From a virus, in IMG/VR virus record IMGVR_UViG_3300044837_000042, positions 1 through 36,626 of that record: 36,626 nucleotides of DNA; one strand, written 5' to 3'. The notes under the pieces are model-generated. The model was given only the letters and a program-made list of their open reading frames with translations, ran no database searches and was not told the origin of the DNA. A program made the translations under genes and the position numbers. Below, piece after piece: positions 4,732 to 36,559 of this stretch; the first letter of the stretch is position 1; each line of letters opens with the position of its first letter.

Positions 4732-5699
4732 TCGAGGTCGTCTCCGGTTACGTTCTGATAGGTCTGGCGCACCCGGAGATACTGACCCGGCGAGTTGTCT
4801 TTCAGCCATTCCAGCGGCGACTTGCGCTTGCCTTGAGGCACGGTCTGGGCCTCGCGTCGCCATTCCACGGCCTGCTGTGCGTTGCCATGGTTGATGCACT
4901 GAATGGCACCGTCTGCCCAATCTCGAGCCTTGTTGGCGCGATCGGCGTTGTAGGTCGAAAGAAGCTTCCCGGCGGCATCGCGCGGCGCATTTTTGGGGGC
5001 GAGAGATTCGATATCGCCGCTGCCGTCGTCTGCGCCATTGCCGTCGTCATCCTCGCCACGGGCCGAGATGTTGAGCAGAGCGAACGACGTATAGCGTTTC
5101 CCGTAGCTGGTGGACGAACCCCAGCCCTGCACATTGTTCTTTGAGCCCGATGTGTCGATCGGCAGAGAGATGGTGGTTTCTTCAGTGTGTCCTCCTCGAT
5201 GCCCAAGAACACCAGAGACGGCAATGCGTTCCGGTGTCGGCTGGGCAATGCGGAAGGACAGTGAGAAGCCATGCTCAGCAAGGATTGGGGTGATGCCCTC
5301 AACCACGTCCTCCCACTTGGCGTACTTTGTCATGGCGACCTGTTTGCCAGTCTTGGCGCCCCTGTCGTCCTTCTCGTTCATGCCGATGACGCCGTGTTTG
5401 GTAATAACCGGCAGCTTGGGCTGCATCTCTGCCAGCGCCGAGAGATAGGAGGCTTTCGCGTCACGAGCCTCCATGTCCAGCTTCATACGGAACAACCGCT
5501 CCATCTTGTCGATATCGACGTTGGGATCGCGCGATGCGCGCTCGATGATGGCGAGGATGGTGGACTCGCCAGCAGGGGCCGCGGCGGGGACCGGCGCCGA
5601 CGGAGACGTGGCAACAGCAAGTGCCTGTTCGGCCGCCGGCTGCATTGGGGCTGTCGAGAAGTCGATTGGCTCCAAGGTCAAGGTTTGAGCTTCAGGCAT
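4728..5699 (-). CDS. erf: ERF-family single-strand annealing recombinase
   Basis: The 323-residue protein belongs to the ERF superfamily of phage annealing proteins, which pair complementary single strands during recombination and genome circularisation. After a Pro/Ala-rich N-terminus (about residues 1-45), the core has DMEARDAKASYLSALAEMQP and then YAKWEDVVEGITPILAEHGF. Next come a GHRGGHTEETTI strand and GWGSSTSYGKRYTSFALLNI. These are the usual conserved blocks in order. The C-terminal 80 residues are divergent, as in the family. A GAGAGGAAG ribosome site precedes the ATG. It is the first large gene of the operon and is directly coupled to NinB. Confidence 0.9.
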   Translation of the reverse strand: MPEAQTLTLEPIDFSTAPMQPAAEQALAVATSPSAPVPAAAPAGESTILAIIERASRDPNVDIDKMERLFRMKLDMEARDAKASYLSALAEMQPKLPVITKHGVIGMNEKDDRGAKTGKQVAMTKYAKWEDVVEGITPILAEHGFSLSFRIAQPTPERIAVSGVLGHRGGHTEETTISLPIDTSGSKNNVQGWGSSTSYGKRYTSFALLNISARGEDDDGNGADDGSGDIESLAPKNAPRDAAGKLLSTYNADRANKARDWADGAIQCINHGNAQQAVEWRREAQTVPQGKRKSPLEWLKDNSPGQYLRVRQTYQNVTGDDLE

Positions 5700-5725
5700 A
5701 GTCGCTTCCTCTCGATTTGCTGGAA

Positions 5726-5803
5726 TTACACAGGCCGCGAAGCGGCGAGCGAACTAATCACGCCGACAAGGGAGGTGATGTGGTGGCGTTCGGAGTCGGT
5801 CAT
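5726..5803 (-). CDS. Tiny ORF, unknown (25 aa)
   Basis: A 25-codon ORF (MTDSERHHITSLVGVISSLA plus five residues) begins at an ATG that overlaps the upstream stop by ATGA. The overlap matches the pattern of every neighbour, which is the main support. The hydrophobic C-terminal half could touch a membrane. It may be a real micro-protein or a chance ORF. Confidence 0.35.
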   Translation of the reverse strand: MTDSERHHITSLVGVISSLAASRPV

Positions 5804-5988
5804 GACTCTTCGTCCCGCATCCGATCGTATTCGAAATCGGGATCGCGCCAGCTTGTGTTGCACTTCCCGGTGCAGTCTGCCGGTGCCCATCCTCCTCGGC
5901 TTTCGCGCGGATCGGCGCCACAGAACTCGCAACGGTCGTCGTCCGGGTTGTGCGTTTTCCAGTCGTCGTATCCAGGCAGTTCAGTCAT
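5800..5988 (-). CDS. Small zinc-finger-like protein (62 aa)
   Basis: The peptide has CEFCGADPRESRGGW and then ADCTGKCNTSW, giving two Cys pairs spaced like a small zinc ribbon. The ends are acidic (YDDWKTHNPDDD and YDRMRDEES). It is coupled to both neighbours by ATGA overlaps. Zinc binding is inferred from spacing; the target is unknown. Confidence 0.7.
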   Translation of the reverse strand: MTELPGYDDWKTHNPDDDRCEFCGADPRESRGGWAPADCTGKCNTSWRDPDFEYDRMRDEES

Positions 5989-6197
5989 AGCAAATCCTCC
6001 TCCGCCATCCGCTCCTCGATGTAATCCGCGATCTGATCCAGCAGATCAGCGATGGCAGCCTCTTTGGTCTCGCCATGGCCAAGCCAATTGCCAACGATGC
6101 CGCTGTCTGGCGCCCCGTCGTAATCGTCGAGATGCGCGCACCAATCGAAGCAGCGAACGGAGATGGGCGGGAAATCAAAATTAGTGACGATGTTCAT
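5985..6197 (-). CDS. Small phage protein, unknown (70 aa)
   Basis: The start at 6197 is set by the ATGA overlap with the upstream gene; the longer ORF extension reads through unrelated sequence. It begins MNIVTNFDFPPISVRCFDWC and contains HLDDYDGAPDSGIVGNWLGH. A helical tail follows (ETKEAAIADLLDQIADYIEE) of the kind seen in many small phage proteins that average or clip host signals. The N-terminal part may form a beta sheet. No function is assigned. Confidence 0.7.
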   Translation of the reverse strand: MNIVTNFDFPPISVRCFDWCAHLDDYDGAPDSGIVGNWLGHGETKEAAIADLLDQIADYIEERMAEEDLL

Positions 6198-6397
6198 GGG
6201 TCCACCAAAGTGATGCTGTCCAAGCCTTCCATGTCGAACCTCTTCATCGCCTCGCGCACTTCTTTGGCGCAGAAGCCGTGGTCTTGGTTCCATGTATCCA
6301 GGCGCGAGTGGGCGTGTAGGTCGCACCAACCCTGACGAAACCAATAGGCATCGCTATGTTCGCGCCAGCCCTGCATGTGAACGCGACAAGGGCTCAC
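6194..6397 (-). CDS. Small phage protein, unknown (67 aa)
   Basis: The GTG at 6397 overlaps the upstream stop (GTGA), so I prefer it to the longer reading. The product is rich in His, Trp and Cys (CRVHMQGWREHSDAYWFRQG, then WCDLHAHSRLDTWNQDHG), which suggests a compact, possibly metal-bound fold. It ends in a helix (AKEVREAMKRFDMEG). No family is recognised. Confidence 0.6.
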   Translation of the reverse strand: MSPCRVHMQGWREHSDAYWFRQGWCDLHAHSRLDTWNQDHGFCAKEVREAMKRFDMEGLDSITLVDP

Positions 6398-6621
6398 GCC
6401 AGCACCTTTGAGTGTGGCCGCACGAGTTGAATGATGGGCGTGTCGATCTGGCAGAACGGAATTCCATCGCGGCAAGCCGAGATGCCCAAACTCGTCCACC
6501 CCATCGGCGGCTCGCTATAGGAGCTGCGTGCATGCTCCAGATCGTCGCAAAGCTCATAGGAGCGCTGCTCTGCTGCGGCGTAGGTGACGAGAAAGCCGTC
6601 TGCTTTCTGGATGTCGGTCAT
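6394..6621 (-). CDS. Small phage protein, unknown (75 aa)
   Basis: ATGA and GTGA overlaps set both ends. The N-terminal half is helical (MTDIQKADGFLVTYAAAEQR, then CDDLEHARSS). The C-terminal half looks like beta strands (GWTSLGISACRDGIPFCQID). Its function is unknown. Confidence 0.6.
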   Translation of the reverse strand: MTDIQKADGFLVTYAAAEQRSYELCDDLEHARSSYSEPPMGWTSLGISACRDGIPFCQIDTPIIQLVRPHSKVLA

Positions 6622-7040
6622 GACGCGGCTCCTGTAGCTTTGGCGATGGCGGCGTGTCCCCTGCCGTACGCGGAGACGCGGATGCTTTCGTATTCATGCG
6701 GATCGAGATCGTCCGGATGGGTGTCGAACGCTTCCAGCAGTTCGCGCAGCGCGGATAGGAGCTCGGGCGCGGCATTGTTCAGGACGGCGCGCGACCGGGC
6801 AGTGGAGACTTCCTCGGCAGTCAGCGGTCCGCCGCCCTTGTCGACGCCGAACAATGTCTGGACACTGCGCAACATGGAGAAGGTGCGCTGCTGGCACTCG
6901 TGATCCGCGAAGGTGCCGAAGCCGTCTTGGTAGAGATCGCAGCACCGGCCGAACTTGGTGGCCTCGGCGCGCACTAGCCCAAGCAACGTCTCTGCGTCGG
7001 GATCGATAGGGGACGCTCCTGCGTCCGCGCTATTATTCAT
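6618..7040 (-). CDS. Phage early protein, unknown (140 aa)
   Basis: A strong purine-rich site (GAGGAGAGGGAAA) precedes the ATG. The first residues, MNNSADAGASP, come from the recurring GGACGC repeat, so the module here is N-terminal. The body is helical with Cys residues (EATKFGRCCDLYQDGFGTFA, then HECQQRTF) and ends in an Ala-rich helix (GRGHAAIAKATGAAS). The middle includes a segment (AAPELLSALRELLEAFDTHP) like the AAPxLL motif common in phage Ea22-like proteins. No activity is known. Confidence 0.7.
   Translation of the reverse strand: MNNSADAGASPIDPDAETLLGLVRAEATKFGRCCDLYQDGFGTFADHECQQRTFSMLRSVQTLFGVDKGGGPLTAEEVSTARSRAVLNNAAPELLSALRELLEAFDTHPDDLDPHEYESIRVSAYGRGHAAIAKATGAAS
7011..7026. 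repeat. GGACGC-N4-GCGTCC dyad repeat, copy 3
   Basis: The transcript sense reads GGACGCAGGAGCGTCC, a 6-base stem with a 4-base loop, encoding DAGAS near the N-terminus of the gene at 6618-7040. It lies about 300 bases into the leftward transcript. Confidence 0.75.
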
Positions 7041-7080
7041 TTTCCCTCTCCTCGTATCTGTTCGTCTGGATGGTTAGGGG

Positions 7081-7296
7081 CTACTCGTACCAACCTTCAT
7101 TGCCGCGCTCGGGGTTGCCGCGGCGCATCCAGGCCGGCCAGCAGTCCGCATCCACAACGGCGATGCGTTCGGATTCCGAGAAGTGCGGGTAGTAGCGGCG
7201 CATCTCGTCCAACTTCGCCTTACGGCGATCAGCGGCACGGGGGCCGCGAACGTTCTGGTTGGATGGAGACTGCGCGTTCTTCGTGCCTGCGGTCAT
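7081..7296 (-). CDS. First gene of leftward early operon, unknown (71 aa)
   Basis: This is the first gene behind the leftward promoter and has a clear AAGGAG ribosome site. The N-terminus is basic and Asn/Ser-rich (MTAGTKNAQSPSNQNVRGPR), followed by KAKLDEMRRYYPHFSESERI and a Trp-rich end (DADCWPAWMRRGNPERGNEG). The position corresponds to where some lambdoid phages encode an antiterminator. The basic arm is loosely compatible with that, but no N-protein motif can be claimed. Confidence 0.65.
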   Translation of the reverse strand: MTAGTKNAQSPSNQNVRGPRAADRRKAKLDEMRRYYPHFSESERIAVVDADCWPAWMRRGNPERGNEGWYE

Positions 7297-7322
7297 GGCG
7301 TGCTCCTTGAGGTGACAGGAGC

Positions 7323-7364
7323 ATCTTGCCGTTATGGAATGTCTAAGTCAATGCCGAAATGGAA
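7323..7364 (-). promoter_or_regulatory. Leftward early promoter with two repressor operators (pL/oL)
   Basis: On the minus strand a -35 box TTGACT (7346-7351) and a -10 box CAAGAT (7323-7328) are 17 bases apart. An operator-like TTCCATAACGGCA (7327-7339) fills the spacer and overlaps the -10 box. A second, TTCCATTTCGGCA (7352-7364), sits directly upstream of the -35, 25 bases away centre to centre. The predicted RNA start lies about 20 bases before the first gene at 7296. The same arrangement occurs at the rightward promoter, so the repressor encoded in between is the likely binder. Confidence 0.75.
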
Positions 7365-7370
7365 AGATAG

Positions 7371-7386
7371 TGGACAAAGTTTTCCA
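7371..7386. promoter_or_regulatory. Imperfect palindrome beside pL
   Basis: TGGACAAAGTTTTCCA reads nearly the same on both strands (TGGA arms, AAA/TTT inner arms). It lies between the repressor gene end and oL and includes a TTTCCA half-site like those in the operators, so it may be an extra operator. Confidence 0.4.
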
Positions 7387-7418
7387 CGCCCCGGAAGCAG
7401 GGCGAGCGGCGGGAGCGT

Positions 7419-8165
7419 CTACTTGTTCACGAGATCTTGCGTAGTCATCACGCGGTGGACCGCATCCACGTCGCCCGTATTGAGCGTGATGGTCTTTTCA
7501 GGATTGTATTGCCGCAGCTCGATCTTATCCCCAACCCAGCTCACGAGCAGCTTCAGGTAGGCGCAGTGCAGGTCGTCTTTGTCCGCTTTCAGACGAACCA
7601 CGACGTGATCATGCTTCCTGGGTGGCGGCCCGGTCTCGAGCAGGATCAATTCGCCATTTTCGTACCTGGGGGCCATTGTATCGCCCCGAACGAAAAGGCC
7701 GTAAATGTCTGTTCTATCAGCTAATTTTGGCGGCCGGCGCACGCGTAATGCAACTTCACTGACGGACATTGTAAAATCGCCCCCCGCCGCCGAAGGCCCC
7801 ATCCCGGTCCTATAGACGAGGATATCTGGTGGTCTTTCTGTGGCATTGGGCAAAGTAATCTGCTCGTCAGGTTGACGCACCGTCGAATCGCTATGCAATT
7901 CTGCATAGCTGCGGTTGCGAGCATCGGGGCGAAAGAATTCGCGGATCAGCGTCGCTTCTCTCTCCCGAAGCGGCCGCTTGTTATTATCGCTTAGCATTTT
8001 CGACATCTTAGATTCAGTGACCTTCAGGTGTTTCGCAAGCTTGGCCTGTTCGCCCTTCCCGAGCTGATCTCTCACCCATTTTTTTTCCATGTTGGTATTG
8101 TGCCGGATAAGCCATTCCATGGATATTTCCCGTTTGGAAAGTAGTCGTTGACGGAAGCTTTCCAT
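7419..8165 (-). CDS. S24-type phage repressor (CI-like) with Thr at the catalytic Ser position
   Basis: The 248-residue protein has an N-terminal helix-turn-helix (AKLAKHLKVTESKMSKMLSD, residues 41-60) and a C-terminal S24/LexA-like domain (about 115-245). The domain contains LFVRGDTMAPRYENGELILL and a later DDLHCAYLKLL. In self-cleaving members the first motif reads GDSM, with Ser as nucleophile and a later Lys. Here position 163 is Thr, with K205 in place. It lies between two promoters carrying matching operators, as a lysogeny repressor should. The ATG at 8165 would be at the 5' end of an RNA from a TAAGAT -10 box. A second in-frame ATG at 8120 is an alternative start. Confidence 0.85.
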   Translation of the reverse strand: MESFRQRLLSKREISMEWLIRHNTNMEKKWVRDQLGKGEQAKLAKHLKVTESKMSKMLSDNNKRPLREREATLIREFFRPDARNRSYAELHSDSTVRQPDEQITLPNATERPPDILVYRTGMGPSAAGGDFTMSVSEVALRVRRPPKLADRTDIYGLFVRGDTMAPRYENGELILLETGPPPRKHDHVVVRLKADKDDLHCAYLKLLVSWVGDKIELRQYNPEKTITLNTGDVDAVHRVMTTQDLVNK

Positions 8166-8200
8166 TACGGCATCTTACTTGCCATGGACCTTTCCAAACT
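8126..8200. promoter_or_regulatory. Rightward operator cluster (oR)
   Basis: Three related sites lie about 30 bases apart. A TTCCAAACGGG-type site on the minus strand falls near 8129-8140, TTCCATTACGGCA is at 8160-8172, and a partial TTCCAAAC is at 8192-8199. Only the middle one matches the oL sites well; the outer two are weaker and shorter. Confidence 0.55.
8148..8176 (+). promoter_or_regulatory. Rightward early promoter (pR)
   Basis: TTGACG (8148-8153) and CATCTT (8171-8176) are 17 bases apart, with operator TTCCATTACGGCA (8160-8172) across the spacer and -10 box. Layout and spacing copy the leftward promoter exactly. The predicted RNA start falls at about 8183, on the ATG of the Cro-like gene. 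Confidence 0.65.
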
Positions 8201-8372
8201 CATCGAAGGCTTGAAGCTCGATCATGTCGCTAAGACCTCGGGCATTCCAATCGCCACGCTGTGGCGCTGGAAAGAGAAGAACGCCATCCCGGGCCACCCT
8301 GATGTGCAGGCGGTCCAGCTAAAGCGCATCCAGAAGGCCGTCCGCCGACTCAAAGCAAAGGCGGACGCGTGA
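8184..8372 (+). CDS. Cro-like small DNA-binding protein (62 aa)
   Basis: The first rightward gene encodes a short helix-turn-helix protein: MDLSKLIEGLKLDHVAKTSG, then IPIATLWRWKEKNAIPGHPD, and a basic C-terminal helix (KAVRRLKAKADA). The size, the position opposite the repressor and the HTH match Cro-type regulators, which block repressor synthesis during lytic growth. No ribosome site precedes the ATG. With the -10 box ending 8 bases upstream, the mRNA is probably leaderless. The stop overlaps the next gene's start. Confidence 0.8.
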   Translation: MDLSKLIEGLKLDHVAKTSGIPIATLWRWKEKNAIPGHPDVQAVQLKRIQKAVRRLKAKADA

Positions 8373-8650
8373 TGGCCTACGATGCGGTTGCCGCTAGCGC
8401 GCGCTCCAAGGTCCAGAACGCAATATGCGCCGGGCGTCTGAAAAGGCAGCCCTGCGAGACGTGCGGTTCCGACTGGAATATCCACGGCCATCACGACGAC
8501 TACTTGAAGCCGCTCGATGTGCGCTGGCTGTGCGCCTCCTGCCACAAGATCCATCATCTGGAGCTCGCGAAGGCCAAGGGCATTGCCGGCGTCAACGAAG
8601 GGACGCTTGGCAAGCTCGCCATCGCGGCAGACCAGCGGCGGGTCGCGTGA
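8372..8650 (+). CDS. HNH-like zinc protein
   Basis: The product has a compact HNH-like core: CETCGSDWNIHGHHDDYLKP, then VRWLCASCHKIHHLE. Two CxxC pairs would hold a zinc ion, and the HGHHDDY segment gives the His-His-Asp of the nuclease site. Such small proteins are common in phages and are often labelled HNH endonucleases; activity is inferred. The ATG at 8372 overlaps the Cro-like stop (TGATG); a GTG one codon earlier is also possible. It is the second gene of the rightward early operon. Confidence 0.75.
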   Translation: MAYDAVAASARSKVQNAICAGRLKRQPCETCGSDWNIHGHHDDYLKPLDVRWLCASCHKIHHLELAKAKGIAGVNEGTLGKLAIAADQRRVA

Positions 8651-8733
8651 ATTTCACCCGCGGACTTCTCCTCGCCCTAGAGCTTGAGGCTTGGGTGGGG
8701 TTGCTCGCGTACGCGATTTGGAGGGCGCTGTGA
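8647..8733 (+). CDS. Tiny membrane peptide (28 aa)
   Basis: GTG overlaps the upstream stop (GTGA) and the stop overlaps the next GTG start. The peptide VNFTRGLLLALELEAWVGLL plus AYAIWRAL is mostly hydrophobic, enough for one membrane helix. Coupling on both sides is the main evidence. Its function is unknown. Confidence 0.5.
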   Translation: MNFTRGLLLALELEAWVGLLAYAIWRAL

Positions 8734-14246: not shown

Positions 14247-14305
14247 TTGGCATCCATCGCTACGCCTGCATGCCGGCATGGGAATGGCGAGCGCATGAAA
14301 GGTGA
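14243..14305 (+). CDS. Tiny ORF, possible coupling peptide (20 aa)
   Basis: A 20-codon ORF (MIGIHRYACMPAWEWRAHER) starts at an ATG overlapping the upstream stop (ATGA) and ends 7 bases before the methyltransferase start I chose. Its main role might be to pass ribosomes on. It may not be a real gene. Confidence 0.25.
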   Translation: MIGIHRYACMPAWEWRAHER

Positions 14306-14312
14306 CTCGAAA

Positions 14313-14993
14313 ATGGACGACGTGATCAGGCAAGTTATCGCGGACGTGAGGCCCTACACTATGGTGCCCGATGAGGGGCTTTCCTGCACGATCGAGCTAA
14401 CCCTTAAAGCCATCAATGATGGCGTTCCGGGCGATCTCGTCGAATGCGGCACCTGGAAGGGCGGATCGAGCTTCGCCATGCTGCTGGCCCAGCGCTACGC
14501 CTACGGCGAGATCAAGCGGCCGGTATGGATGTACGATAGCTTCGAGGGCATGTCGCCGCCTAGCCCTGAGGATGGCAATGACGCGCATCAATGGCATGAG
14601 CGGTCGCTGACCGGGGTGGTGGACCCCAAGGGACAGAACTTCTGCAAGGCGCCGCTTGATCAAGTGTGGGCGGCCATCGATCACTTTGAGTTCGGCAACA
14701 AGGCCATCGTGCGTAAGGGCTGGCTGCATGAAAGCTTGCCGATCCAGAAGCCTGAGGCCATTGCTGTCCTGCGCATTGACTGCGACTGGTACGACCCCGT
14801 GATGTGCGTCTACCGCGAGCTCGAGCCGCTCGTCTCGGTCGGCGCGCCCATAATCATCGACGACTACGTTCGCTGGGATGGCTGCGTCCTAGCCACCCAT
14901 GAGTACTTGGCGCGCAATAGTTTGCCATGGCGCATCCGATCGGTGCCCAACAATGCCGGCGCCTGGATGATCAAACAGCCGGCGACTTCGTGA
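14313..14993 (+). CDS. TylF/MycF-like sugar O-methyltransferase
   Basis: The 226-residue protein follows the TylF/MycF methyltransferase family, which uses SAM and a metal ion to methylate hydroxyls on sugars. Motifs in order are DLVECGTWKGGSS (41-53, SAM site), YDSFEG (74-79), RIDCDWYD (154-161, metal-binding acids) and IIDDYVRWDG (181-190). I chose ATG 14313, with AGGTGA 9 bases before it; 14295 is also possible. It is unusual in an early phage operon. Its substrate is probably a host surface sugar, and it lies about 2 kb before a glycosyltransferase-like gene. That link is inference. Confidence 0.85.
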   Translation: MDDVIRQVIADVRPYTMVPDEGLSCTIELTLKAINDGVPGDLVECGTWKGGSSFAMLLAQRYAYGEIKRPVWMYDSFEGMSPPSPEDGNDAHQWHERSLTGVVDPKGQNFCKAPLDQVWAAIDHFEFGNKAIVRKGWLHESLPIQKPEAIAVLRIDCDWYDPVMCVYRELEPLVSVGAPIIIDDYVRWDGCVLATHEYLARNSLPWRIRSVPNNAGAWMIKQPATS

Positions 14994-15362: not shown

Positions 15363-15632
15363 ATGCGCGGCGGTAAGCGCGAAGGCGCGGGCCGGCGTAA
15401 GGGCACGCCCAACAAGGCGACCGCTGATATCAAGGCCCAGGCGCAGAAATACACGCCCGACGCCCTGAAGACGCTGCACGCCATCATGCGGGACAGTGAG
15501 AGCGATGCTGCGCGAGTGAGCGCGGCCAAGGAACTGCTGGATCGAGGCTACGGCAAGTCGCCCCAGCCCCAGACCGGGGAAGGCGGCGAGGGGCCCATCA
15601 CCGTCGTCATTCGGAAGTTCTCCGATGGCTGA
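15363..15632 (+). CDS. Putative terminase small subunit (89 aa)
   Basis: The short protein lies directly upstream of the large terminase gene. It begins with a basic arm (MRGGKREGAGRRKGTPNKAT), which resembles AT-hook-like DNA-binding starts of small terminase subunits. A helical body follows (TPDALKTLHAIMRDSESDAA, then KELLDRGYGK). The role assigned is DNA recognition for packaging, from position and family resemblance. No ribosome site is seen before the ATG. The stop overlaps the large-subunit start by 8 bases. Confidence 0.7.
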   Translation: MRGGKREGAGRRKGTPNKATADIKAQAQKYTPDALKTLHAIMRDSESDAARVSAAKELLDRGYGKSPQPQTGEGGEGPITVVIRKFSDG

Positions 15633-17019
15633 AGTCCCGTTGCCCAACAACTGGCAGCCGCGCCGCTACCAAATGCCCTTCTGGACGGCCATGGAGCGGG
15701 GCTGCAAGCGCGCTATCCCCATCTGGCACCGTCGCGCCGGCAAGGATGACGCGGTTCTGCACTGGACGGCTACGGCTGCCCACGAACGCAAGGGCGTCTA
15801 CTGGCACATGCTCCCGCAGGCCAACCAAGCCCGCAAGGCCGTCTGGGACGCGATCAACCCGCATACCGGCCTGAAGCGCATCGACGAGGCCTTCCCCCTA
15901 GCCTTGCGCGCTAGCACCCGCTCGCAGGACATGGCGATCGAGTTCAAGTGTGGGTCGATGTGGCAGCTCGTCGGCTCGGACAATTTCAATAGCTTGGTGG
16001 GCAGCCCGCCAATCGGCATCGTGTTCTCAGAGTGGGCATTGGCCGACCCTGCCGCATGGGCATACCTATCGCCCATCCTTGAGGAAAACGGTGGCTGGGC
16101 GGTGTTCATCACCACGCCGCGCGGCAAGAACCACGCATACCGCATGCTGCAGAACGCCAAGAAGAACGCGGGCGAATGGTTCTCCCAAGTCCTGACCATT
16201 GACGATACGGGCATTTTGAGCGCCGAGCGCTACGAGGCCATCCGCAAGGACCGCATGGCCGAGTTTGGCGAGGTGTTTGGCAACGCCATGTGCGAGCAGG
16301 AATACCGCTGCAGCTTCGAGGCGGCGATCTTGGGGGCGTATTTCTCCAAGGAAATGGCGGACGCCGATCGCGAGGGCCGGGTCTGCGATGTAATGGCAGA
16401 TCCGAGCCAGCCGGTGCACACAGCATGGGATCTGGGCGTGGATGACAGCACGGCTATCTGGTTCTTTCAGGTGCTGGCCGGCGGCCTGCACATCGTCGAC
16501 TACTACGAGTCATCGGGCGTCGGCGCTGAGCATTACGTCGATGTGCTGAAAGAACGGGCCTATCCCTACGGCAAGCATTTCGTGCCGCATGACGCCAAGG
16601 TCAAGGAGTGGGGCTCAGGCCGCACCCGCGTTGAGGCATTGCAGGGCTTCAAGCTCAATCCGCAATTGGTGCCTGACCATTCGTTCGCTGACGGCATTCA
16701 GGCTGCCCGCACGACAATTCCGCGCTGCCGGTTCGATGCTGATCGCTGTGAGCGTGGCCTGGATGCGCTGCGGAGCTATCACGCCAAATACGACGAAGAG
16801 GCCCGCACGCTAGCCAAGATCGCCGTGCACGACTGGTCGAGCCACGGCGCCGATGCCTTTCGCTACATGGCGATGGCATGGCGTGAGCTGCGCGCTGCCG
16901 CTCCTCTACCGCGGAACACATCGGAGGTCTATGTCGGCCATCCGGACGGCTCTATCACGAGCAATCTGACCTTCGCTGAGATGGTCGCGCGCCAGGCCGA
17001 GCGCATGGACCGCGAATGA
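15625..17019 (+). CDS. terL: Terminase large subunit
   Basis: The 464-residue protein is a phage packaging ATPase and nuclease. The ATPase part has a Walker A-like WHRRAGKDD (34-42), Walker B-like GIVFSEWA with E136, and FITTPRGKNH (161-170). The nuclease part has WDLGVDDSTAIWFF (D269, D272/273), a VPHDAK motif (320-325) and HGADAFRYM (408-416). These acids would hold two metal ions. The order and length fit the family. The ATG lies 8 bases inside the upstream gene; a GGAAG site precedes it. The stop is coupled to the next gene by ATGA. Confidence 0.95.
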   Translation: MAEVPLPNNWQPRRYQMPFWTAMERGCKRAIPIWHRRAGKDDAVLHWTATAAHERKGVYWHMLPQANQARKAVWDAINPHTGLKRIDEAFPLALRASTRSQDMAIEFKCGSMWQLVGSDNFNSLVGSPPIGIVFSEWALADPAAWAYLSPILEENGGWAVFITTPRGKNHAYRMLQNAKKNAGEWFSQVLTIDDTGILSAERYEAIRKDRMAEFGEVFGNAMCEQEYRCSFEAAILGAYFSKEMADADREGRVCDVMADPSQPVHTAWDLGVDDSTAIWFFQVLAGGLHIVDYYESSGVGAEHYVDVLKERAYPYGKHFVPHDAKVKEWGSGRTRVEALQGFKLNPQLVPDHSFADGIQAARTTIPRCRFDADRCERGLDALRSYHAKYDEEARTLAKIAVHDWSSHGADAFRYMAMAWRELRAAAPLPRNTSEVYVGHPDGSITSNLTFAEMVARQAERMDRE

Positions 17020-18221
17020 CCGTCATGAAAACCATGGACGGCGAGAGGCTCGACCTACAGCCGGTCTTCAACATGGTCGCCATGTGGGCTGACAAGGAGA
17101 TGCGCGAGCTGTGGAGGCAGCCGCAAGAGTACCGCGGCGGCCTGTTTATGGGCTGTGCGGTGTGGGGAGCGCAGTTCTACCAGCGCTTCAAGGACTACTG
17201 CCTCTCATCGATGTTGACCGAGGCTAATCTAGCCGTCCTGCGCGGCAATTCGCATCTCGCCATCTTCACCGACCGCATGGGCTTCGGCCCGATGTGGGAG
17301 CTTCGCAAGCGGCTGGACGAGTGCGGCATCGCCAACACGATCCATGAGATCCCGGCCGAGATCATCGCCGAGGTGCCCAAGCATGCGCTGAACAGGTACT
17401 GGCCGATGGGCACGGCGCACAATCTCGCCATCCAGATGGCAGGGCGGCAGGGCAGGGCGTTTCACATGCTGTCGCCCGATGTTGTGACCTGCCCCGGCTA
17501 CTACGCCAACCTGATGAAGCTGGGCAAGACGCACGAAGGCATCGCGCAGACCACCATAAGTGCGCTGGAATCTACGGTGGTCCCTGAGCTTGAAGCGCGG
17601 CGTAGCCCAGACGGGACGCTGATCATTCCCGATCGCGACCTGGGCGATATCGCATGGCGCCACCTGCACAAGCAGATGCAGCACTTCATCATGAACGATC
17701 GGGACATTGAGACGGAGATGGTCCGCACCACATGGCTTGGCTGGCGCGGGCGCGACCGGATCTCGCTCTACAGCCCTCACCTGAACCCAGCCTATATGTC
17801 GCCACGCCTTTGCGTGAAGGCGCCCATGAGGATACCGGCGACGATTGACGCCGAGCTGCCGAGCTTCATTCCCCAACCACATTGCTACGTGGCCGAGATT
17901 GCGGACGGGCTGACGCTCATCGAGGTGAGCGACGAGACCAAGGCCGACCGGCCCGAGCTGATCGACTTCCCCGAGTTCGCTGCATCGGCCTGGGGGATCA
18001 TGAAATTCAGTGACGCCTACGTCCCCTACATGGCGACGCGGGGCGAGGTGCCGGTCCATCCGCAGAAGGACTTCCTCGAGCTGGATGAAATCGAGCGGCG
18101 GCAGGCTGCCATCATGCACCGGCTGGTGTGGGGCAACGGCGAGTCGATCCAGGCGGGCAAGGCTGCGGCGTCACTCGTAGCGCTGAGCAAGATCATGGAC
18201 ATGGGTGCGGGCAATGGCTGA
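17016..18221 (+). CDS. Glycosyltransferase-like protein, cargo between terminase and portal
   Basis: This 401-residue protein is not a known packaging or head protein. The block GCAVWGAQFYQRFKDYCLSS, then NLAVLRGNSHLAIFTDR, recalls alphaproteobacterial proteins with WGxxYxxxF...LPSxL...NLPxL that are linked to surface-sugar genes and thought to be glycosyltransferase-like. The match is from memory and only at pattern level. Other stretches are AHNLAIQMAGRQGRAFHMLS with PDVV (a possible DxD stand-in), and AQTTISALESTVVPELEARR. It starts by ATGA coupling with the large terminase gene and ends inside the portal start. The CDS is certain; the glycan role is inference. Confidence 0.75.
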   Translation: MTVMKTMDGERLDLQPVFNMVAMWADKEMRELWRQPQEYRGGLFMGCAVWGAQFYQRFKDYCLSSMLTEANLAVLRGNSHLAIFTDRMGFGPMWELRKRLDECGIANTIHEIPAEIIAEVPKHALNRYWPMGTAHNLAIQMAGRQGRAFHMLSPDVVTCPGYYANLMKLGKTHEGIAQTTISALESTVVPELEARRSPDGTLIIPDRDLGDIAWRHLHKQMQHFIMNDRDIETEMVRTTWLGWRGRDRISLYSPHLNPAYMSPRLCVKAPMRIPATIDAELPSFIPQPHCYVAEIADGLTLIEVSDETKADRPELIDFPEFAASAWGIMKFSDAYVPYMATRGEVPVHPQKDFLELDEIERRQAAIMHRLVWGNGESIQAGKAAASLVALSKIMDMGAGNG

Positions 18222-20403
18222 TCAGGCCGACAACACGCAGAGCGGCACGGCCGAGACCGTTGCCGAGACCCGCAGGAGCCCGGGCGAGTTCGCCAAGTTC
18301 TGGCTGCAGGCCATCCAACTTGCGAGCGATGACGAGGGCGACTGGCGCAAGGATGCCGAAGAGGCGCTGAAGCGCTTCCGCACGGGCAAGAAGCAGGGCT
18401 TCAACATCCTGTACGCCAACACGCAGACGACGGTGCCGGCGCTCTACAACAGCCCGCCAGCGCCCGACGTTCGCAGGCGCTTCGATCTCATCACGCCGCA
18501 ACCGCCGCAGAGCCAGCCCCAGCCGCAACCCCAGCCAGGCATGCCTCCGCCGCCGCCCGATCCGCAGGCGCAGATGGCGATGCAGGCCTATCAGGCGCAG
18601 GTCGCGCAGGCCAAGCAAGGGCAGGAGGACGGCAAGCAGGTCTGCACAGCCATCGAGCGCGCGATATCGGTCGCGTCCGAGCTCTACAACTTCGATGGCG
18701 TCATGCAGGCGGCCGTCCTCGATCGCCAATTGCCCGGCCGCGGCGTGACGCGCGCCCGTATCTGCATGGGTGCCGCCGGCTCCAAGTGGGTAGAGTGCGA
18801 GCAGGTCCAGTGGGACGACTTCAGGCACGGGCCCGGGAAGACGTTCAAGGACTGGCCGTGGGTGGCCTTCCGCCATCGGCAGACGCGCGAGGAGCTGGTC
18901 AAGCTGGCGGGGCCGGTGATTGGACAAGAGGTCAAGCTGGACGCCCAGGTGGGTGACACGCCGGCCAAGAACACGGACAGCCTGCCCGATTCATTCAAGC
19001 GCGCCCTCACGTGGGAGGTCTGGGACAAGGAAGAGCGCAAGGTCTACTGGTTCGCTGAGTCCTACAAGGACGCGCCGCTCGCGGAGCAGCCCGACCCCTA
19101 CGAACTGCGCGAATTCCTGCCGATTCCCGAGCCGCTGTACCAAGTGAGGGTGCCCGACTCGACGACGCCGATCTGCGAGTTCCGGCTATGGAAGCAGCTT
19201 GCGGACGAGGTGGACAGTATCACCACCCGCATTATCGGGCTGATCAGGGTGCTGAAGGCCAAGGGCCTGTATGACGGCGCCTTCGCGAGCATCGTCGAGA
19301 AGCTCAAGAGCCTGGATGACGGCGAGTTGGCCGCTGCGGACGACGCAGGCCGCTCAATGGCCCAGGGTGGCATCGACAAGGCCATCTGGATGTGGCCGGT
19401 GGATGCGATCGTCAAGGTCGTGGAGAGCCTGTACGAGGCCCGTGAGCGCGCCAAGAATGCGCTGTACGAGTTCACGGGCGTGGCTGACATCATGCGCGGC
19501 CAGACCGAGCCCAGCGAGACGCTCGGCGCCCAGCGGATCAAGGCGCAGTGGGGCAGCTTGCGGCTGCAGAAGGGCCAAGCCGACGTTCAGCGCTATGCCC
19601 GCGACCTGTTCAGGCTGATGGCCGATCTGCTGGCCTATGCGTGGGAGCCTGCGGAATGGCAGGCAGTGACGGGCGTTCAGCTTACGCCGGCGCAATTCAA
19701 GCTGATCAAGAGCGACCTGCAGCGCGAATTCGCGATCGAGATCGAGACGGACTCGACGATCCGGGCCGACCTCTCTCGAGCGCAGGAGAATATCTCGGGC
19801 TTTGTGACCGGGCTCGGCGCCTTCATGACCGCGGTCGGCCCCGCGGTAGCCGAGGGCTTCATGCCACCGGACATTGCGGTCAAGTACATCTCCGCCTTCG
19901 CGCGCAACTTCAAGCTTGGCCGGGAGGCCGAGGACTTGGGTGACGAGTGGGTGAAGTGGCTGGAGGACAAGGCGCAGAACCCGCAGCCGCCGAAGCCCGA
20001 CCCCAAAGTGCAGGCCGAGCAGATCAAGGCCGCCACCATTGCTCAGCAGTCGCAGGCGAGGGTGCAGGAGACCCAAGTCAAGGCGCAGGCCAAGGTGCAG
20101 GAAATCCAGGTCAAGGCCCAAGCCACCGCGCAGCAGACGCAGTTGGATACGCAGGCGGCTATTGCCGAGTTCCAAATGGAGATGAAGCAACTGGAGACCA
20201 AGATGCAGGCGTTCCTGGCGGAGCATGCGGCCGGCATGCAGACGCGGCGCGCCGATGCGGCGCTGGCGGCCGGCGATCACATGCTGCAGGCGGACTCTCA
20301 GGCAAGGCAGGGGCAGGCGGCAGAGCGCGGGCATGAGATCGCGCTGGAGGGGCTGGAGGCCAAGCGCCGGGCCCAGCAGCAGCCGAACGGAGGCGACCGG
20401 TGA
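18214..20403 (+). CDS. Portal protein
   Basis: The 729-residue protein is a podovirus-type portal. It forms the dodecameric ring through which DNA enters the capsid. After an N-terminal helical region, it carries GFNILYANTQTTVPALYNSP and a Pro-rich insert (about 95-120). Later come a beta-rich middle and YEFTGVADIMRGQTEPSETL before GAQRIKAQWGSL. These are patterns seen in large podoviral portals. The C-terminus (about 590-700) is a long Gln/Ala/Lys coiled coil (QARVQETQVKAQAKVQEIQV), possibly the barrel region. ATG 18214 is preferred over the longer in-frame start at 18205. It overlaps the upstream stop by 8 bases. Confidence 0.9.
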   Translation: MADQADNTQSGTAETVAETRRSPGEFAKFWLQAIQLASDDEGDWRKDAEEALKRFRTGKKQGFNILYANTQTTVPALYNSPPAPDVRRRFDLITPQPPQSQPQPQPQPGMPPPPPDPQAQMAMQAYQAQVAQAKQGQEDGKQVCTAIERAISVASELYNFDGVMQAAVLDRQLPGRGVTRARICMGAAGSKWVECEQVQWDDFRHGPGKTFKDWPWVAFRHRQTREELVKLAGPVIGQEVKLDAQVGDTPAKNTDSLPDSFKRALTWEVWDKEERKVYWFAESYKDAPLAEQPDPYELREFLPIPEPLYQVRVPDSTTPICEFRLWKQLADEVDSITTRIIGLIRVLKAKGLYDGAFASIVEKLKSLDDGELAAADDAGRSMAQGGIDKAIWMWPVDAIVKVVESLYEARERAKNALYEFTGVADIMRGQTEPSETLGAQRIKAQWGSLRLQKGQADVQRYARDLFRLMADLLAYAWEPAEWQAVTGVQLTPAQFKLIKSDLQREFAIEIETDSTIRADLSRAQENISGFVTGLGAFMTAVGPAVAEGFMPPDIAVKYISAFARNFKLGREAEDLGDEWVKWLEDKAQNPQPPKPDPKVQAEQIKAATIAQQSQARVQETQVKAQAKVQEIQVKAQATAQQTQLDTQAAIAEFQMEMKQLETKMQAFLAEHAAGMQTRRADAALAAGDHMLQADSQARQGQAAERGHEIALEGLEAKRRAQQQPNGGDR

Positions 20404-22205: not shown

Positions 22206-23174
22206 ATGGCTTCCCCCAACGCAACGTTTACGGAAATCGTCACCACGACGCTCCGTGAGCACCCTGACGATGTCGCGGACAACGTCAGCAACCACAACGC
22301 TCTCTACCGCTGGCTCAAGGAAAAGGGCAAGATCGAGAAGGAAGACGGCGGCTACGAGATCGTCTGCCCGCTCGACTACGCCGAGAACTCCACGTTCCAG
22401 CGCTACTCTGGCTTCGATCCGCTGAACATCAGCGCATCGGATGTCCTGACGGCGGCGAAATACGACTGGATGCAGGCTGCGATTCACGTCGTGGCGTCCG
22501 GCCGTGAGCTTCGCATGAACTCGGGCAGCAACCAGATCATCGATCTGGCGAAGGCCCGGCTCAAGAACGCGGTGCGCACCGCCTCCAACAACGCCTCGGT
22601 CGATATCTACTCGTCCGGCTCGTTGACCAACCAGATGGGCGGCCTCGGCGCGCTGATCACGGCGGCCGGCACCGGCACCGTGGGCGGCATCAACTCCAGC
22701 ACCTACGCCTGGTGGCAGAACCAGTTCCTAGAGATCACCGGGACGAACGCCTGGACCAAGTCCACGATCAAGGGCTTCATGAACACCCTCTGGCTGGCCT
22801 GCGTCCGCGGTACGGACAAGCCCGACCTGATCGTGTCCACGAACGACTTCTACTCGGCGTATTGGGAAGGCCTGCAGGATCTGCAGCGCTTCACCACGGC
22901 CGGCAAGTCGGCGAGCTACGGCTTCGACTCGATCAAGTACCTCGACTGCGACGTGGTGCATGACCTGAACACGAACTTCGCCAGCACCGGTGAGACGATG
23001 TACTTCGTCAACACCGAATACCTGGAGATGAGCGTCCACCGGGCGGCCAACTGGACGCAGTTCGACGAGAAAATGAGCGTCAATCAGGATGGCGTCGTCA
23101 TCCCGCTCCTGTTCATGGGCAACCTGACCTGCAGCAACCGTGCCCGCCAGGGTCGCTTGCTGGATGCGTCGTAA
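22206..23174 (+). CDS. Major capsid protein
   Basis: The 322-residue protein, in the major-capsid position after the scaffold gene, begins MASPNATFTEIVTTTLREHP with VADNVSNHNALYRWLKEKG, the N-terminal arm seen in coat proteins of podovirus-like phages. Later parts (AWWQNQFLEITGTNAWTKST, and KPDLIVSTNDFYSAYWEGLQ) match the family I recall. An HK97-type fold is presumed. AAGGATC lies before the ATG. It is probably the most abundant virion protein. Confidence 0.85.
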   Translation: MASPNATFTEIVTTTLREHPDDVADNVSNHNALYRWLKEKGKIEKEDGGYEIVCPLDYAENSTFQRYSGFDPLNISASDVLTAAKYDWMQAAIHVVASGRELRMNSGSNQIIDLAKARLKNAVRTASNNASVDIYSSGSLTNQMGGLGALITAAGTGTVGGINSSTYAWWQNQFLEITGTNAWTKSTIKGFMNTLWLACVRGTDKPDLIVSTNDFYSAYWEGLQDLQRFTTAGKSASYGFDSIKYLDCDVVHDLNTNFASTGETMYFVNTEYLEMSVHRAANWTQFDEKMSVNQDGVVIPLLFMGNLTCSNRARQGRLLDAS

Positions 23175-24682: not shown

Positions 24683-26650
24683 ATGACTACGATTGCGCCC
24701 GTCTCTAACGTCACTCCTGCGTTTATTGACGAGCTGAATGCCAATTTTGCTGCGATCGACGCGGTCCTTGATCGGACCATAGACGCCAGAGACTTTCGCG
24801 TCGCCATTGGCACTTTGGAAGATCAAAGCACAAAACTACAGGCGGCTATCGCTGCCGCTGAAGCCGCCAAAATAAGGCTTCTGCTGCCTGCGGGATACAT
24901 CCGCATCGACAACACGATCACCCTAGGCACGAATGCCCCGATATGGATGGAGGGGCCGTTGTCGCACAACTTCACCGGCTTCACCGACAACCCCATCGAT
25001 GCTGTCACTGTCCTTTATTGCGCCAACCTTCCGAGCAACGTCCCGGCGATCAAGTTTGACCAAACTGTCACCGGCAACACTCGCGACGGGATCACGCTCA
25101 AGAACGTCGTCATCTATCGCCCAACGCCATCCACGGCAGGGGCCGGGGACAAGGGCATTCTCCTGCTCGGCGTCACCAACCCGCGCATCGAAAATGTGCT
25201 GGTGTCGGGCTTCGATACCGGCGTGCATTTCAACGAAAGCACGGACGGCACTCGTGCGACGCTCATGGGGAACTTTACCAACCTCAATGTCCAGCTATCC
25301 GGCAACTACGGCGGTCTTGTTGAAAGTTGCATTGAGTGTCTGTGGGATCACTGTGCTTTTGGCGGCGCGACTATCGCCAGTCTGGGCATCATTGCGCCAA
25401 CGCTCATTGGTCCTGGCCCGGCCAACGTCATATCGAACGGAAACTATTTCGAGCATTGCAAGTTCATCGCATCGACCGGAACGGTGCCGCCGAACAACGT
25501 CCGCATCGACGTTGGCTTCTGGAACAACTTCGATACTTGCGCGTTTGAGCAAGCTACCGGCGAAAACTTTAAGTCCGACATGAGTACGACAGGCGGGCAC
25601 ACGGACAACCGCGTCGATGTTGTTCTAGTGGATTGCTGGTTCAATAACGACTTTGCCTCCAACACTGGCTGCCTCAACCTCATCGACACGAACTTTGAGA
25701 TCATCGGTGGCCGCGCTGGCAGCACCGTTTCCGTCGACAGTATCATCAAGGTAGACATATCTGGCGTGAACATTCTCACGCTTGGTTCCTGCATCATGGG
25801 GATGCGCGTAAATTTCCCGGCTGTCAGCGGCATCCACCTGGGCAACGTCGAGGGCTGCCAGATAATCGGAAACATCATCGAGGACCAGAGCGCTTCTGGC
25901 CTGCCTTGCATTGTAACGGGGGCAACCTCTGGCAGGAGCGCTATTTCCGCGAACCGCTTCAGGACTACTCACGCCACTGGCTACACGAATGGCAGTGAGG
26001 CCGTAGGCGGTGGAAATATTTTCGTCGATAACGTCCTGTCCAACAACTTCTCGTCGGACGCCTTCTATAAGAAGGCTATCGGCGGCCCCGTACAAACTGT
26101 CGGCGGGCAGGTGGCGAAATGGCAATTCTTAGGCGTTGATCAGGCATCAGCAGAACGCTTAATAGCGCGCTATTCTGCCGACACTGGTGCGCCTTTCACA
26201 CTTTACTACAAGAGCCGCGCAACAGCCCCCGGCGCCGCGCGCGCCGCGGTCTCCAGCGGTGACGGTGTCTCCGTCCGTCGCTTTTATGCGGATGATGGAA
26301 CGGCCGACCAAGAGGTTTTCCGCGAGACCGTCAATGTCGATGGCGTCACCGGAGGCAGTTGGTCGCTAGCCAACAAGATCGCAGCGGGCGCCCTGACAAC
26401 CCGCATTACGCTCGACAATGCCGGCGTCTGGACTATTACCGGCACATGGAATTTCACCGGAAACAGTGTGCTCACGGGGAGCCTGACCACCACCGGCACC
26501 ATTACTGGACCCGCAGGTACTACCGCTGCCGCCACCTTGCGTGTGCCACATGGAGCAGCCCCGACATCCCCGACCAATGGCGACATCTGGACCACGACGG
26601 CTGGCCTTTTTGTCCGAATCAACGGCGTGACGGTGGGGCCGCTGACATGA
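24683..26650 (+). CDS. Beta-helix tailspike-like protein
   Basis: The 655-residue protein has repeated short strands rich in Asn, Gly, Thr and Val across about residues 110-450. An example is GNTRDGITLKNVVIYR followed by NPRIENVLVSGFDTGV. That points to a right-handed beta-helix, as in phage tailspikes that bind or cut host sugars. The first 60 residues are helical, and the C-terminal block (SPTNGDIWTTTAGLFVRING) resembles tail-fibre ends. AT content seems higher than in neighbours. It lies between head genes and the adaptor gene rather than at the tail-gene end. Confidence 0.8.
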   Translation: MTTIAPVSNVTPAFIDELNANFAAIDAVLDRTIDARDFRVAIGTLEDQSTKLQAAIAAAEAAKIRLLLPAGYIRIDNTITLGTNAPIWMEGPLSHNFTGFTDNPIDAVTVLYCANLPSNVPAIKFDQTVTGNTRDGITLKNVVIYRPTPSTAGAGDKGILLLGVTNPRIENVLVSGFDTGVHFNESTDGTRATLMGNFTNLNVQLSGNYGGLVESCIECLWDHCAFGGATIASLGIIAPTLIGPGPANVISNGNYFEHCKFIASTGTVPPNNVRIDVGFWNNFDTCAFEQATGENFKSDMSTTGGHTDNRVDVVLVDCWFNNDFASNTGCLNLIDTNFEIIGGRAGSTVSVDSIIKVDISGVNILTLGSCIMGMRVNFPAVSGIHLGNVEGCQIIGNIIEDQSASGLPCIVTGATSGRSAISANRFRTTHATGYTNGSEAVGGGNIFVDNVLSNNFSSDAFYKKAIGGPVQTVGGQVAKWQFLGVDQASAERLIARYSADTGAPFTLYYKSRATAPGAARAAVSSGDGVSVRRFYADDGTADQEVFRETVNVDGVTGGSWSLANKIAAGALTTRITLDNAGVWTITGTWNFTGNSVLTGSLTTTGTITGPAGTTAAATLRVPHGAAPTSPTNGDIWTTTAGLFVRINGVTVGPLT

Positions 26651-27402: not shown

Positions 27403-28967
27403 TGCTGCTTCAGACCAACAAGGCGCGCTCGATGCCGGCCATGGGCTCGGGATCTATCCCGGCACCGGTGGGCGGCCTGCAGCTCAAGAGCGGCATTGCA
27501 GCGCTGAAGCCCAACGAAGCCCTGCTGTTGGACAACTGGTTCCCCAAGCCCGGCTATGTCCAAGTGAGGGGCGGCTACACGAGTCAGGCTACCGGCATCG
27601 GTGCACTGGTTGGCTCCCTCCTGGAATGGGCAGGGCCTGCCTCGCGCAAGTTCTTTGCCGCCAAGTCCACTGCCATCTACGAGATCACCGCTGGCGGCGC
27701 GGTGGGAGCCGCTGCAGTCTCCAGCCTGAATAGCGCCTACTGGCAGACGGTCAATTTCACGACCGCGGGCGGCAGCTTCCTTGTGCTTTGCAACGGGGCC
27801 GACTCGGTCCGGAACTACGACGGCACGACTTGGACCACGCCCAGTATCACAGGCGTGACGAGCTCCAACCTGATCAACGTGGCGTCCTACAAGACGCGCC
27901 TGTGGTTCGTCGAGAAGGACAGCACCAAGGCCTGGTACATGCCCACGAGCGCGATTTCGGGGGCCGCTACTTCCCTGGAGATGGGCGACAAGTTCACGAA
28001 GGGCGGCAAGCTTCAGATCATTGGCACCCTTTCGCGAGATGCGGGCAACGGCGCGCAGGACATTATCTGCTTCGTGTCCTCCCGCGGCGAGGTCATCGCC
28101 TACCAAGGGTCAGACCCGACCGACACCAACAACTGGACCCTCATCGGCAAGTACATGGCCGCTCCGCCGATCAGCAATCGGGCGCTGATTCGCATAGATG
28201 GCGACCTCGGGCTGTTGACCAGCAAGGGAGTCGTCTCCCTGCGCCAGGTGGCTGCCGGCGGCATCTCGGCGGCCGACCGCGGCGCTATCACCGGCAACGT
28301 GGACCAGGGCATTATCGACGATTTCACGTCCTATGGCGCCCTGACGGGCTGGGAAATGATCGTCCACCCGCAGACGCGGCAGATGATCGTCAACGTCCCC
28401 ACGTCGAACTCGACCGCCACTCAGTACGCCATGAACATCCAGACGGGGAAGTGGTGCACCTACGGCCGCTATGCCTCGCCGCTCGATGCGACTTGCTGGG
28501 GGATCTTCAACGAAAGCCTGTACTTCGGCACATCTGGCGGCACAGTCTACAAGGCCGAAACCGGCGCTCAGGACAACGGTAGCGCCATCACGGCGCAGCT
28601 CAAGACGAGTTTCCAGAGCTATGGCCGGAAGGGCGGCGTCGCGCGGATCACCATGGTCCGGCCGCTTTTCACCGCGGGCGGCCAAGTTCTGCCGGCCATC
28701 CGGGTCAACGTGGACTACCGCAACGACACGCCGATGACGACCGACGAATTCCCCAGCACCTCAGGCTCTGCGGGCGCGGTTTGGGATGTGAGCCTGTGGG
28801 ATACGGGCGTGTGGGGCGACACCGATACGCCCTACGCCGACTGGCTGGCCGCGCAGGGCATCGGAACCGTCTCGAGCATCAACATGGTTGTGAGACCCGA
28901 CGGCATGCCAGTGAAGCTGAATGCGATCGACGTTCTCTATGAAGTAGCGCGGGGGATGAGCCTTTGA
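27402..28967 (+). CDS. Packaged-DNA stabilisation-like (P22 gp10-type) tail protein
   Basis: The 521-residue protein begins MLLQTNKARSMPAMGSGSIP and then has PVGGLQLKSGIAALKPNEAL with LLDNWFPKPGYVQVRGGY. I recall these segments from podovirus tail-hub proteins compared with P22 gp10. The rest is beta-rich with repeated Trp and Asn/Gly motifs, suggesting a propeller. The ATG shares a base with the upstream stop (TAATG). It likely closes the portal channel and bears the tail. Confidence 0.75.
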   Translation: MLLQTNKARSMPAMGSGSIPAPVGGLQLKSGIAALKPNEALLLDNWFPKPGYVQVRGGYTSQATGIGALVGSLLEWAGPASRKFFAAKSTAIYEITAGGAVGAAAVSSLNSAYWQTVNFTTAGGSFLVLCNGADSVRNYDGTTWTTPSITGVTSSNLINVASYKTRLWFVEKDSTKAWYMPTSAISGAATSLEMGDKFTKGGKLQIIGTLSRDAGNGAQDIICFVSSRGEVIAYQGSDPTDTNNWTLIGKYMAAPPISNRALIRIDGDLGLLTSKGVVSLRQVAAGGISAADRGAITGNVDQGIIDDFTSYGALTGWEMIVHPQTRQMIVNVPTSNSTATQYAMNIQTGKWCTYGRYASPLDATCWGIFNESLYFGTSGGTVYKAETGAQDNGSAITAQLKTSFQSYGRKGGVARITMVRPLFTAGGQVLPAIRVNVDYRNDTPMTTDEFPSTSGSAGAVWDVSLWDTGVWGDTDTPYADWLAAQGIGTVSSINMVVRPDGMPVKLNAIDVLYEVARGMSL

Positions 28968-29497
28968 GCCACAACTACCTGTTTGGCTTCGACGAACAAC
29001 TGGCGCGCTGGGCCTGCGATCGCATCCCGTGGGCCGATTACCAGCCGACCATGAAGGCGGTGGGCATTGCGGACGGCGACACGGAGGCATCCAAGCTCCT
29101 GGCCGTCTGCGTCTACCACAGCTACATCCCGACCAAGACGATCGACGGAAAGCCCTGGTTTGGCCTTTGTGAGATTTCCTTTGCGGCTGCGAGCCCCAAA
29201 TGGGCAACCCGTAGCGCAATATCGTTCTTGCTTGGAATACCCTTCCTGCAATACAATTGCCGGAAGGTAGTGACGATCATTCCCTCCACGAATAAGCGCG
29301 CGCTCCGCTTTAACGAAGGGATCGGTCTGAAGCCGGAAGGCACGCTGAGGCACCACTTCGCCAAGGGCGTGCATGCCTGCATCCACGGGATTTTAAGGTC
29401 GGAATACGACGCGCGGTGGAAACACCCGCATCGCCGACGCCCCTCCGGATCGCAGGCCCATGGGCAAATCGACGCCGCAAGCGCCGCCAGCGCCTAA
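28964..29497 (+). CDS. GNAT-like acetyltransferase
   Basis: The 177-residue product resembles GNAT-fold proteins found in podovirus tail regions. GLCEISFAAASPKWATRSAI lies in the middle, followed by TNKRALRFNEGIGLKPEGTL with RHHFAKGVHACIHGILRSEY, the part that would bind acetyl-CoA. It starts at TTG overlapping the upstream stop (TTGA). The Ser/Arg-rich end overlaps the next gene by 38 bases. The target is unknown. Its position among structural genes could reflect modification of a virion protein or of a host factor. Confidence 0.65.
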   Translation: MSHNYLFGFDEQLARWACDRIPWADYQPTMKAVGIADGDTEASKLLAVCVYHSYIPTKTIDGKPWFGLCEISFAAASPKWATRSAISFLLGIPFLQYNCRKVVTIIPSTNKRALRFNEGIGLKPEGTLRHHFAKGVHACIHGILRSEYDARWKHPHRRRPSGSQAHGQIDAASAASA

Positions 29498-30362: not shown

Positions 30363-30578
30363 TCAGGGCTTGTCGCACGAAAATGCCAGATAGCCGCCCC
30401 AGGTCTGGACTTGTGTTACCCGCGCGATTCGGCCGTAACGCTCGCAATGAGCATTGGCCGCGCTCACTGCGGGGCCTGGCGAGGCGCCGTACCACTGCGC
30501 CACGCCCCCAAGTTCCGTTGCATCTATCGCCGGGGCGCAACCGGCAAGTCCGAGCGCCGCTATGACAAAAAGCCTCAC
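30363..30578 (-). CDS. Small lipoprotein on the opposite strand (71 aa)
   Basis: A minus-strand ORF encodes GTG-started MRLFVIAALGLAGCAPA, a lipoprotein signal with the lipobox LAGC (Cys at residue 14). The mature part has two Cys (HCERYGRIARVTQVQTWGG, then FSCDK) that could form a disulfide. A GGAAGG site precedes the start. It is convergent with the upstream gene and divergent from the PP-loop gene, so it needs its own promoter. Such lysogen-expressed genes (morons) often alter the host surface or block other phages; the role here is unknown. Confidence 0.75.
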   Translation of the reverse strand: MRLFVIAALGLAGCAPAIDATELGGVAQWYGASPGPAVSAANAHCERYGRIARVTQVQTWGGYLAFSCDKP

Positions 30579-30579
30579 G

Positions 30580-35220: not shown

Positions 35221-35223
35221 CCC

Positions 35224-36213: not shown

Positions 36214-36214
36214 C

Positions 36215-36325: not shown

Positions 36326-36339
36326 GAGGGAGCTAACCA

Positions 36340-36549: not shown

Positions 36550-36559
36550 GAGACGATCA

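Follow-up and report, generated by a model that had tools for sequence, protein, structure and literature searches.

Between the large terminase (terL) and portal genes of a tailed phage lies a gene, here called X, whose product has the GT-A glycosyltransferase fold in a high-confidence model. Relatives of X recur in the head and packaging region of other phages, and X is linked to a gene for a TylF-family sugar O-methyltransferase. On balance, we think it probable that X and TylF form a virion-glycosylation cassette, which would place methylated glycans on the phage particle.

The window, that is, the whole stretch of 36,626 bases that was analyzed, is an IMG/VR virus record. It belongs to an Mx8-like tailed phage, and its terL, portal, and capsid kin include those of the Myxococcus phages Mx8 and Mx9, the Rhizobium phage RHph_I3_18, and the Bradyrhizobium phage ppBjS10J-1. 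The phage looks temperate, as an S24-type repressor gene is present. The main features are listed in Table 1. X has an ATG start and 401 codons. Its start and the terL stop share the sequence ATGA (17016-17019), and the start codon of the portal gene, also ATG, lies inside X, 8 bp from the end of the X stop codon, so that both the position and the two-sided overlap given in the preliminary description were confirmed. The GC contents at the three codon positions of X (0.61/0.43/0.84) follow a coding-frame pattern, and the protein aligns over its full length with relatives at 24-41% identity, indicating that X is a real gene. An open reading frame on the reverse strand (17229-18119, 296 aa) was taken as a shadow of the X coding frame.

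Table 1. Positions in the window of X, its motifs, and the genes discussed with it
Feature	Position	Strand	Basis
TylF-family SAM-dependent sugar O-methyltransferase (macrocin O-methyltransferase-like)	14247..14993	+	PF05711 E 2.3e-34
Terminase small subunit candidate	15363..15632	+	phrog_15261 E 2e-24; weak small-subunit matches; upstream of terL
terL, large terminase	15625..17019	+	phrog_2472 E 1e-41, phrog_2 E 1e-23; 54% to RHph_I3_18 TerL
X, GT-A-fold glycosyltransferase (predicted)	17016..18221	+	AlphaFold model, PDB fold matches, homologues
FHMLSPD, residues 149-155 of X, DXD-equivalent donor/metal motif after strand 4	17460..17480	+	alignment, model strand positions
HLH, residues 216-218 of X, HxH motif, candidate catalytic/metal histidines	17661..17669	+	alignment column counts
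Portal	18214..20403	+	phrog_12082 E 1.4e-123; tblastn to Mx8 and other portals
Major capsid protein, candidate glycan acceptor	22206..23174	+	phrog_9953 major head protein E 1e-84

Several accessory genes were found elsewhere in the window. A PAPS-reductase-family moron (30454-31305; PF01507, E 1.6e-10) lies among the tail genes, and an acyl-CoA N-acyltransferase-like moron (28964-29497, phrog_4470) is flanked by an amidase-like gene on one side and structural genes on the other. A 655-residue β-helix (NosD-like) protein with a tail-fibre-like C-terminus is encoded at 24683-26650 by a gene of lower GC content (0.574), which is inserted between the head and tail-tube genes and is absent from the related loci L010 and L016; its product may be a tailspike or a depolymerase encoded at an unusual site. 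A diversity-generating retroelement (DGR) was considered around an Mtd-like match in the tail fibre gene (35224-36213) and rejected, since the record contains no reverse transcriptase and positions 30000-36626 contain no template repeat.

Searches with the single X sequence gave no match in Pfam, NCBIfam, PHROGs, PDB sequences, 50,697 phage records, or an IMG/VR scan; a weak match to aspartate carbamoyltransferase (E 0.71) was discarded as chance. Relatives were instead reached stepwise, through relatives of TerL, then through the locus L017, and then with alignments of two and five sequences. An AlphaFold model based on an 18-sequence alignment, which contained no cellular sequences, reached a pLDDT of 89.6 and a pTM of 0.88 and superseded an earlier five-sequence model (pLDDT 60.7). 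Foldseek and VIA-align matched the model to GT-A glycosyltransferases and related sugar nucleotidyltransferases in the PDB, including RmlT, AvpGT, TarS, TarP, SpsA, WrtF, and COLGALT1 (Z 12-13.4), with superpositions of ~3 Å across ~180 residues. Among viral models, the best match was an uncharacterized Caudovirales protein (TM 0.67/0.77), followed by named glycosyltransferases. X resembles RmlT, TarS, TarP, SpsA, AvpGT, and COLGALT1 in the fold over residues ~39-310, in the nucleotide-sugar domain, and in a DXD-like motif, whereas the identity is only ~10%, the C-terminal part of X is less covered, and the motif reads xPD rather than DXD. Membership of X in the TarP/TarS or COLGALT1 families is thus not claimed, as only the fold is in common. 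The preliminary description had read X as a glycosyltransferase-like enzyme and had named a packaging or head fold as the outcome that would speak against this; the structure prediction gave the GT-A fold instead, and the cellular relatives of X, described below, lie in polysaccharide clusters.

The alignment supports a predicted donor/metal site. F149 and D155 are invariant in all 18 copies of X; the motif is xPD at residues 153-155, and the first Asp of the canonical DXD is not conserved. Both His residues of the HxH motif (216 and 218) are present in 14 of the 18 copies, and this motif is mostly or wholly lost in the tandem copies of the records G392 and G400. Tandem X pairs lie at L160 (3041-5127) and L163 (3444-5551), with HxH partly or wholly lost and H150/P154 missing as well from the first copy; these pairs are possibly heterodimers with one inactive partner. 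No transmembrane segment was found in X (maximum 19-residue Kyte-Doolittle mean, 0.9), and its acceptor must therefore be accessible from the cytosol.

Beyond the window, 15 IMG/VR records were found to contain homologues of X, as was one contig of a Microvirga metagenome-assembled genome (MAG); this contig and one of the 15 records seem to represent a single phage. Wherever the position could be determined, X was in the head/packaging region. The order terL-X-portal, with small genes tolerated in between, was present in 9 of the 14 placeable records, the window included (the window, G003, G392, G393, G394, G397, G398, G399, and G400); the assignments of terL and portal were verified with PHROG, tblastn, or BLAST against copies already confirmed or annotated. 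X follows the capsid gene in G001 and, as a second copy, in G003, precedes the terminase genes in G002 and G391, and lies near presumed capsid genes, assigned from their position, in G401 and G402. In G395 and G396, X follows terL and no portal gene was found. Among the records with X at the junction, the terL proteins form four sets with no detectable mutual identity or at most 29%, and the X copies of these four sets are on separate branches of the X tree, most of which are weakly resolved at depth. The search for the terL-enzyme-portal order, which had been proposed as a check, thus revealed that the arrangement recurs in four terL lineages. A rough binomial estimate for four of seven terL lineages at one of ~50 junctions gives p ~5e-6, an illustration only, which ignores that the slot is prone to insertion and that the records are not a random sample.

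Close relatives of the window phage lack X. Terminase and portal genes are adjacent in L010 (TerL 85% and portal 63% identical to those of the window) and in L015/L016 (83% and 51%), and in L034 (TerL 83%) the portal gene directly follows terL. Neither the L010 nor the L016 record yielded an X gene. These results indicate that X is an insertion. The statement that terL and portal are normally adjacent held for L010 and L015/L016 and was weakened in the wider set: among 57 non-redundant loci with a related terL, the gap between terL and portal, counted with mechanically taken portal starts, was <60 bp in 25, 60-999 bp in 26, and at least 1 kb in 6. A gap of at least 60 bp in 32 of the 57 relatives shows that the junction is commonly used for insertion. 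In many relatives the slot is occupied by unrelated genes, for example those for HTH proteins. In L045 it holds a protein with an Acb2/Tad1 hairpin domain (anti-defence type, 7765-8184), suggesting that the slot may take counter-defence genes too, and in L056 it holds a 933-residue open reading frame of unknown family (5310-8111). A gene in the equivalent slot of the Manatee Spring phage (L004, 2598-3695) showed no detectable kinship to X. Because these phages generally use the terL-portal junction for insertions, the placement of X may reflect tolerance rather than function.

The O-methyltransferase gene of the window, which is separated from X by the terminase genes, scored 119.3 bits against PF05711 (curated cut-off 23). 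Its product retains the SAM motif GDLVECG, and E66, C67, G68, D178, D180, D205, and D206 are invariant in the alignment. A TylF gene lies beside X in G391, G392, G393, and G400, where the protein is 57-67% identical to that of the window, and in G401, where it is 39% identical. In a separate scan of IMG/VR with TylF, four of the five closest sequences were beside X as against one of the next 75 (that of G401; Fisher p 1.6e-5), which bears out the earlier suggestion that X is paired with the upstream TylF-like gene. Although the scan profile included the X-linked TylF sequences, ranking by identity to the window TylF left the order unchanged. TylF and X are thus truly linked. The fifth of the closest contigs, L172, showed no X in the 16.7 kb read; its TylF gene (7983-8678), 55% identical to that of the window, is in the head-tail region and may pair with another glycosyltransferase. 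Both genes are absent from the L016 record. No TylF gene was seen in 10 of the 15 other X records, some of which are fragments.

Cellular relatives of X are encoded in 18 of 385 sampled genomes from the class of the Microvirga MAG; the matches within the Microvirga MAG itself are phage. These relatives reside in alphaproteobacterial surface-polysaccharide clusters, with neighbors typical of such clusters: asparagine synthase-like, ABC-2 exporter, UDP-galactopyranose mutase, FkbM methyltransferase, and epimerase genes, as well as DegT aminotransferase, heptose-type kinase/nucleotidyltransferase, and aminosugar-type genes. In L150, a TylF gene encoding a protein 31% identical to the window TylF directly adjoins the X relative. 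Homology between this family (for example, loci L109, L112, L144, and L146-L150) and X is detectable at profile E-values of 1e-10 to 1e-48, and the two have in common the motif WG..Y...F...LPS..AP.NL, similar neighbors, and, once, TylF. The cellular proteins differ from X in being 450-1087 aa long and often consisting of two tandem domains. X relatives occur as tandem genes or two-domain proteins of up to 1087 residues in L142, L143, L145, L109, and L113. No Pfam or NCBIfam model covers the cellular family.

To our knowledge, glycosylated particles have been shown for few phages, and decoration with methylated sugars has been reported mainly for some mycobacterium phages. The preliminary description knew of no system like that of the window. 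This does not hold, since cluster O mycobacteriophages carry a TylF-family O-methyltransferase and three glycosyltransferases in the head operon, between the portal and capsid protease genes (PMC4351075, PMC11600133). The cluster O enzymes are made in infected cells and were not found in twice-purified virions, and modification of the capsid was proposed by the authors from the scarcity of capsid peptides (PMC4351075). Freeman et al. 2023 (doi 10.1016/j.chom.2023.05.028), as cited in PMC11600133, PMC12363180, and PMC12619734, reportedly found glycans on the capsid and tail-tube proteins of these phages. Firecracker was compared here as the cluster O representative in place of Corndog. Its gene order is portal, O-methyltransferase, three glycosyltransferases, protease, and capsid. 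The methyltransferase gp33 belongs to PF05711 (47.5 bits, cut-off 23) and matches the window TylF-family profile (hhalign, 98.1%), whereas the glycosyltransferases gp34-gp36 gave no match to the X profile. Corndog gp35-gp38 and Firecracker gp33-gp36 thus resemble the window in combining a TylF-family O-methyltransferase with one or more glycosyltransferases in a head operon. They differ in that their glycosyltransferases are of other sequence families than X, that the cassette lies between portal and protease rather than being divided between the terL-portal junction (X) and a site upstream of the terminase genes (TylF), and that the hosts are different. Because the proposed mode of action and the methyltransferase family are common to both and the glycosyltransferase family is different, we regard the window system as a variant and not as a proven member.

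By this reading, X would be a soluble GT-A glycosyltransferase, probably metal-dependent, that is produced late together with the head proteins and moves a sugar from a host nucleotide-sugar onto a virion protein in the cytoplasm. The capsid, portal, decoration, or tail proteins are candidate acceptors. TylF would then O-methylate a hydroxyl of that sugar, and the methylated surface glycans might shield the particle, change its adsorption, or stabilize it. The C-terminus of the window capsid protein showed no notable difference from those of relatives without X, and thus gave no support to a capsid extension serving as an acceptor sequence exclusive to X phages.

The main rival explanation is that X and TylF act on the host surface, altering LPS, capsule, or S-layer sugars via cytosolic glycan intermediates, at a late stage of infection or during lysogeny, and thereby blocking re-adsorption or superinfection. 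The cellular relatives of X, one of them with an adjoining TylF, are equally compatible with an acceptor on the cell surface, the phage looks temperate, and the tailspike-like β-helix gene could read host polysaccharide. Gtr-type serotype-conversion systems have membrane segments, however, whereas X has none, and in many lineages X is grouped with the late head genes rather than placed next to the repressor. We therefore consider this explanation rather unlikely. A general moron, in which X glycosylates small molecules or host proteins, has no special tie to the virion, and merely occupies a tolerant slot with late expression, is in keeping with the filling of the same slot by unrelated HTH and Acb2/Tad1-type genes in many relatives; it is improbable, given that unrelated head lineages repeatedly carry the X family at the slot and next to the capsid gene. 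Phage glycosyltransferases that act on modified DNA bases exist (reviewed in PMC12619734), and X adjoins the terminase, which would suit glycosylation of a modified base of the phage DNA. Such a role is highly improbable, since the partner is from a sugar O-methyltransferase family, two X relatives follow the capsid gene, and a search for the thymidylate synthase/hydroxymethylase families found no member in 13 X-phage records, the window included. A non-enzymatic packaging or head-assembly factor with a borrowed GT-A fold, to which the overlaps with terL and portal and the loss of HxH in the G392/G400 tandem copies might point, is scarcely to be expected given the invariant D155, the retention of HxH in most copies, the intact metal site of the linked methyltransferase, and the close relatives that do without X, which disfavor a purely structural role.

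Virion glycosylation thus remains our preferred function for X and TylF. More broadly, and more tentatively, it is quite conceivable that an unnamed glycosyltransferase family, found both in phages and in alphaproteobacterial surface-glycan clusters, was repeatedly recruited, often with TylF, to the terL-portal junction of unrelated phages, where it would build methylated glycans on the particle. It would then represent a second virion-glycosylation system, assembled independently of that of the mycobacteriophages. The case is of interest for its nameless family, for the recurrent recruitment of that family to a single genomic site, and for a directly testable prediction on phage particles. 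The proposal would provide a likely job for an enzyme family without a Pfam model and, if true, would mean that virion glycosylation is more widespread among phages and has more than one origin.
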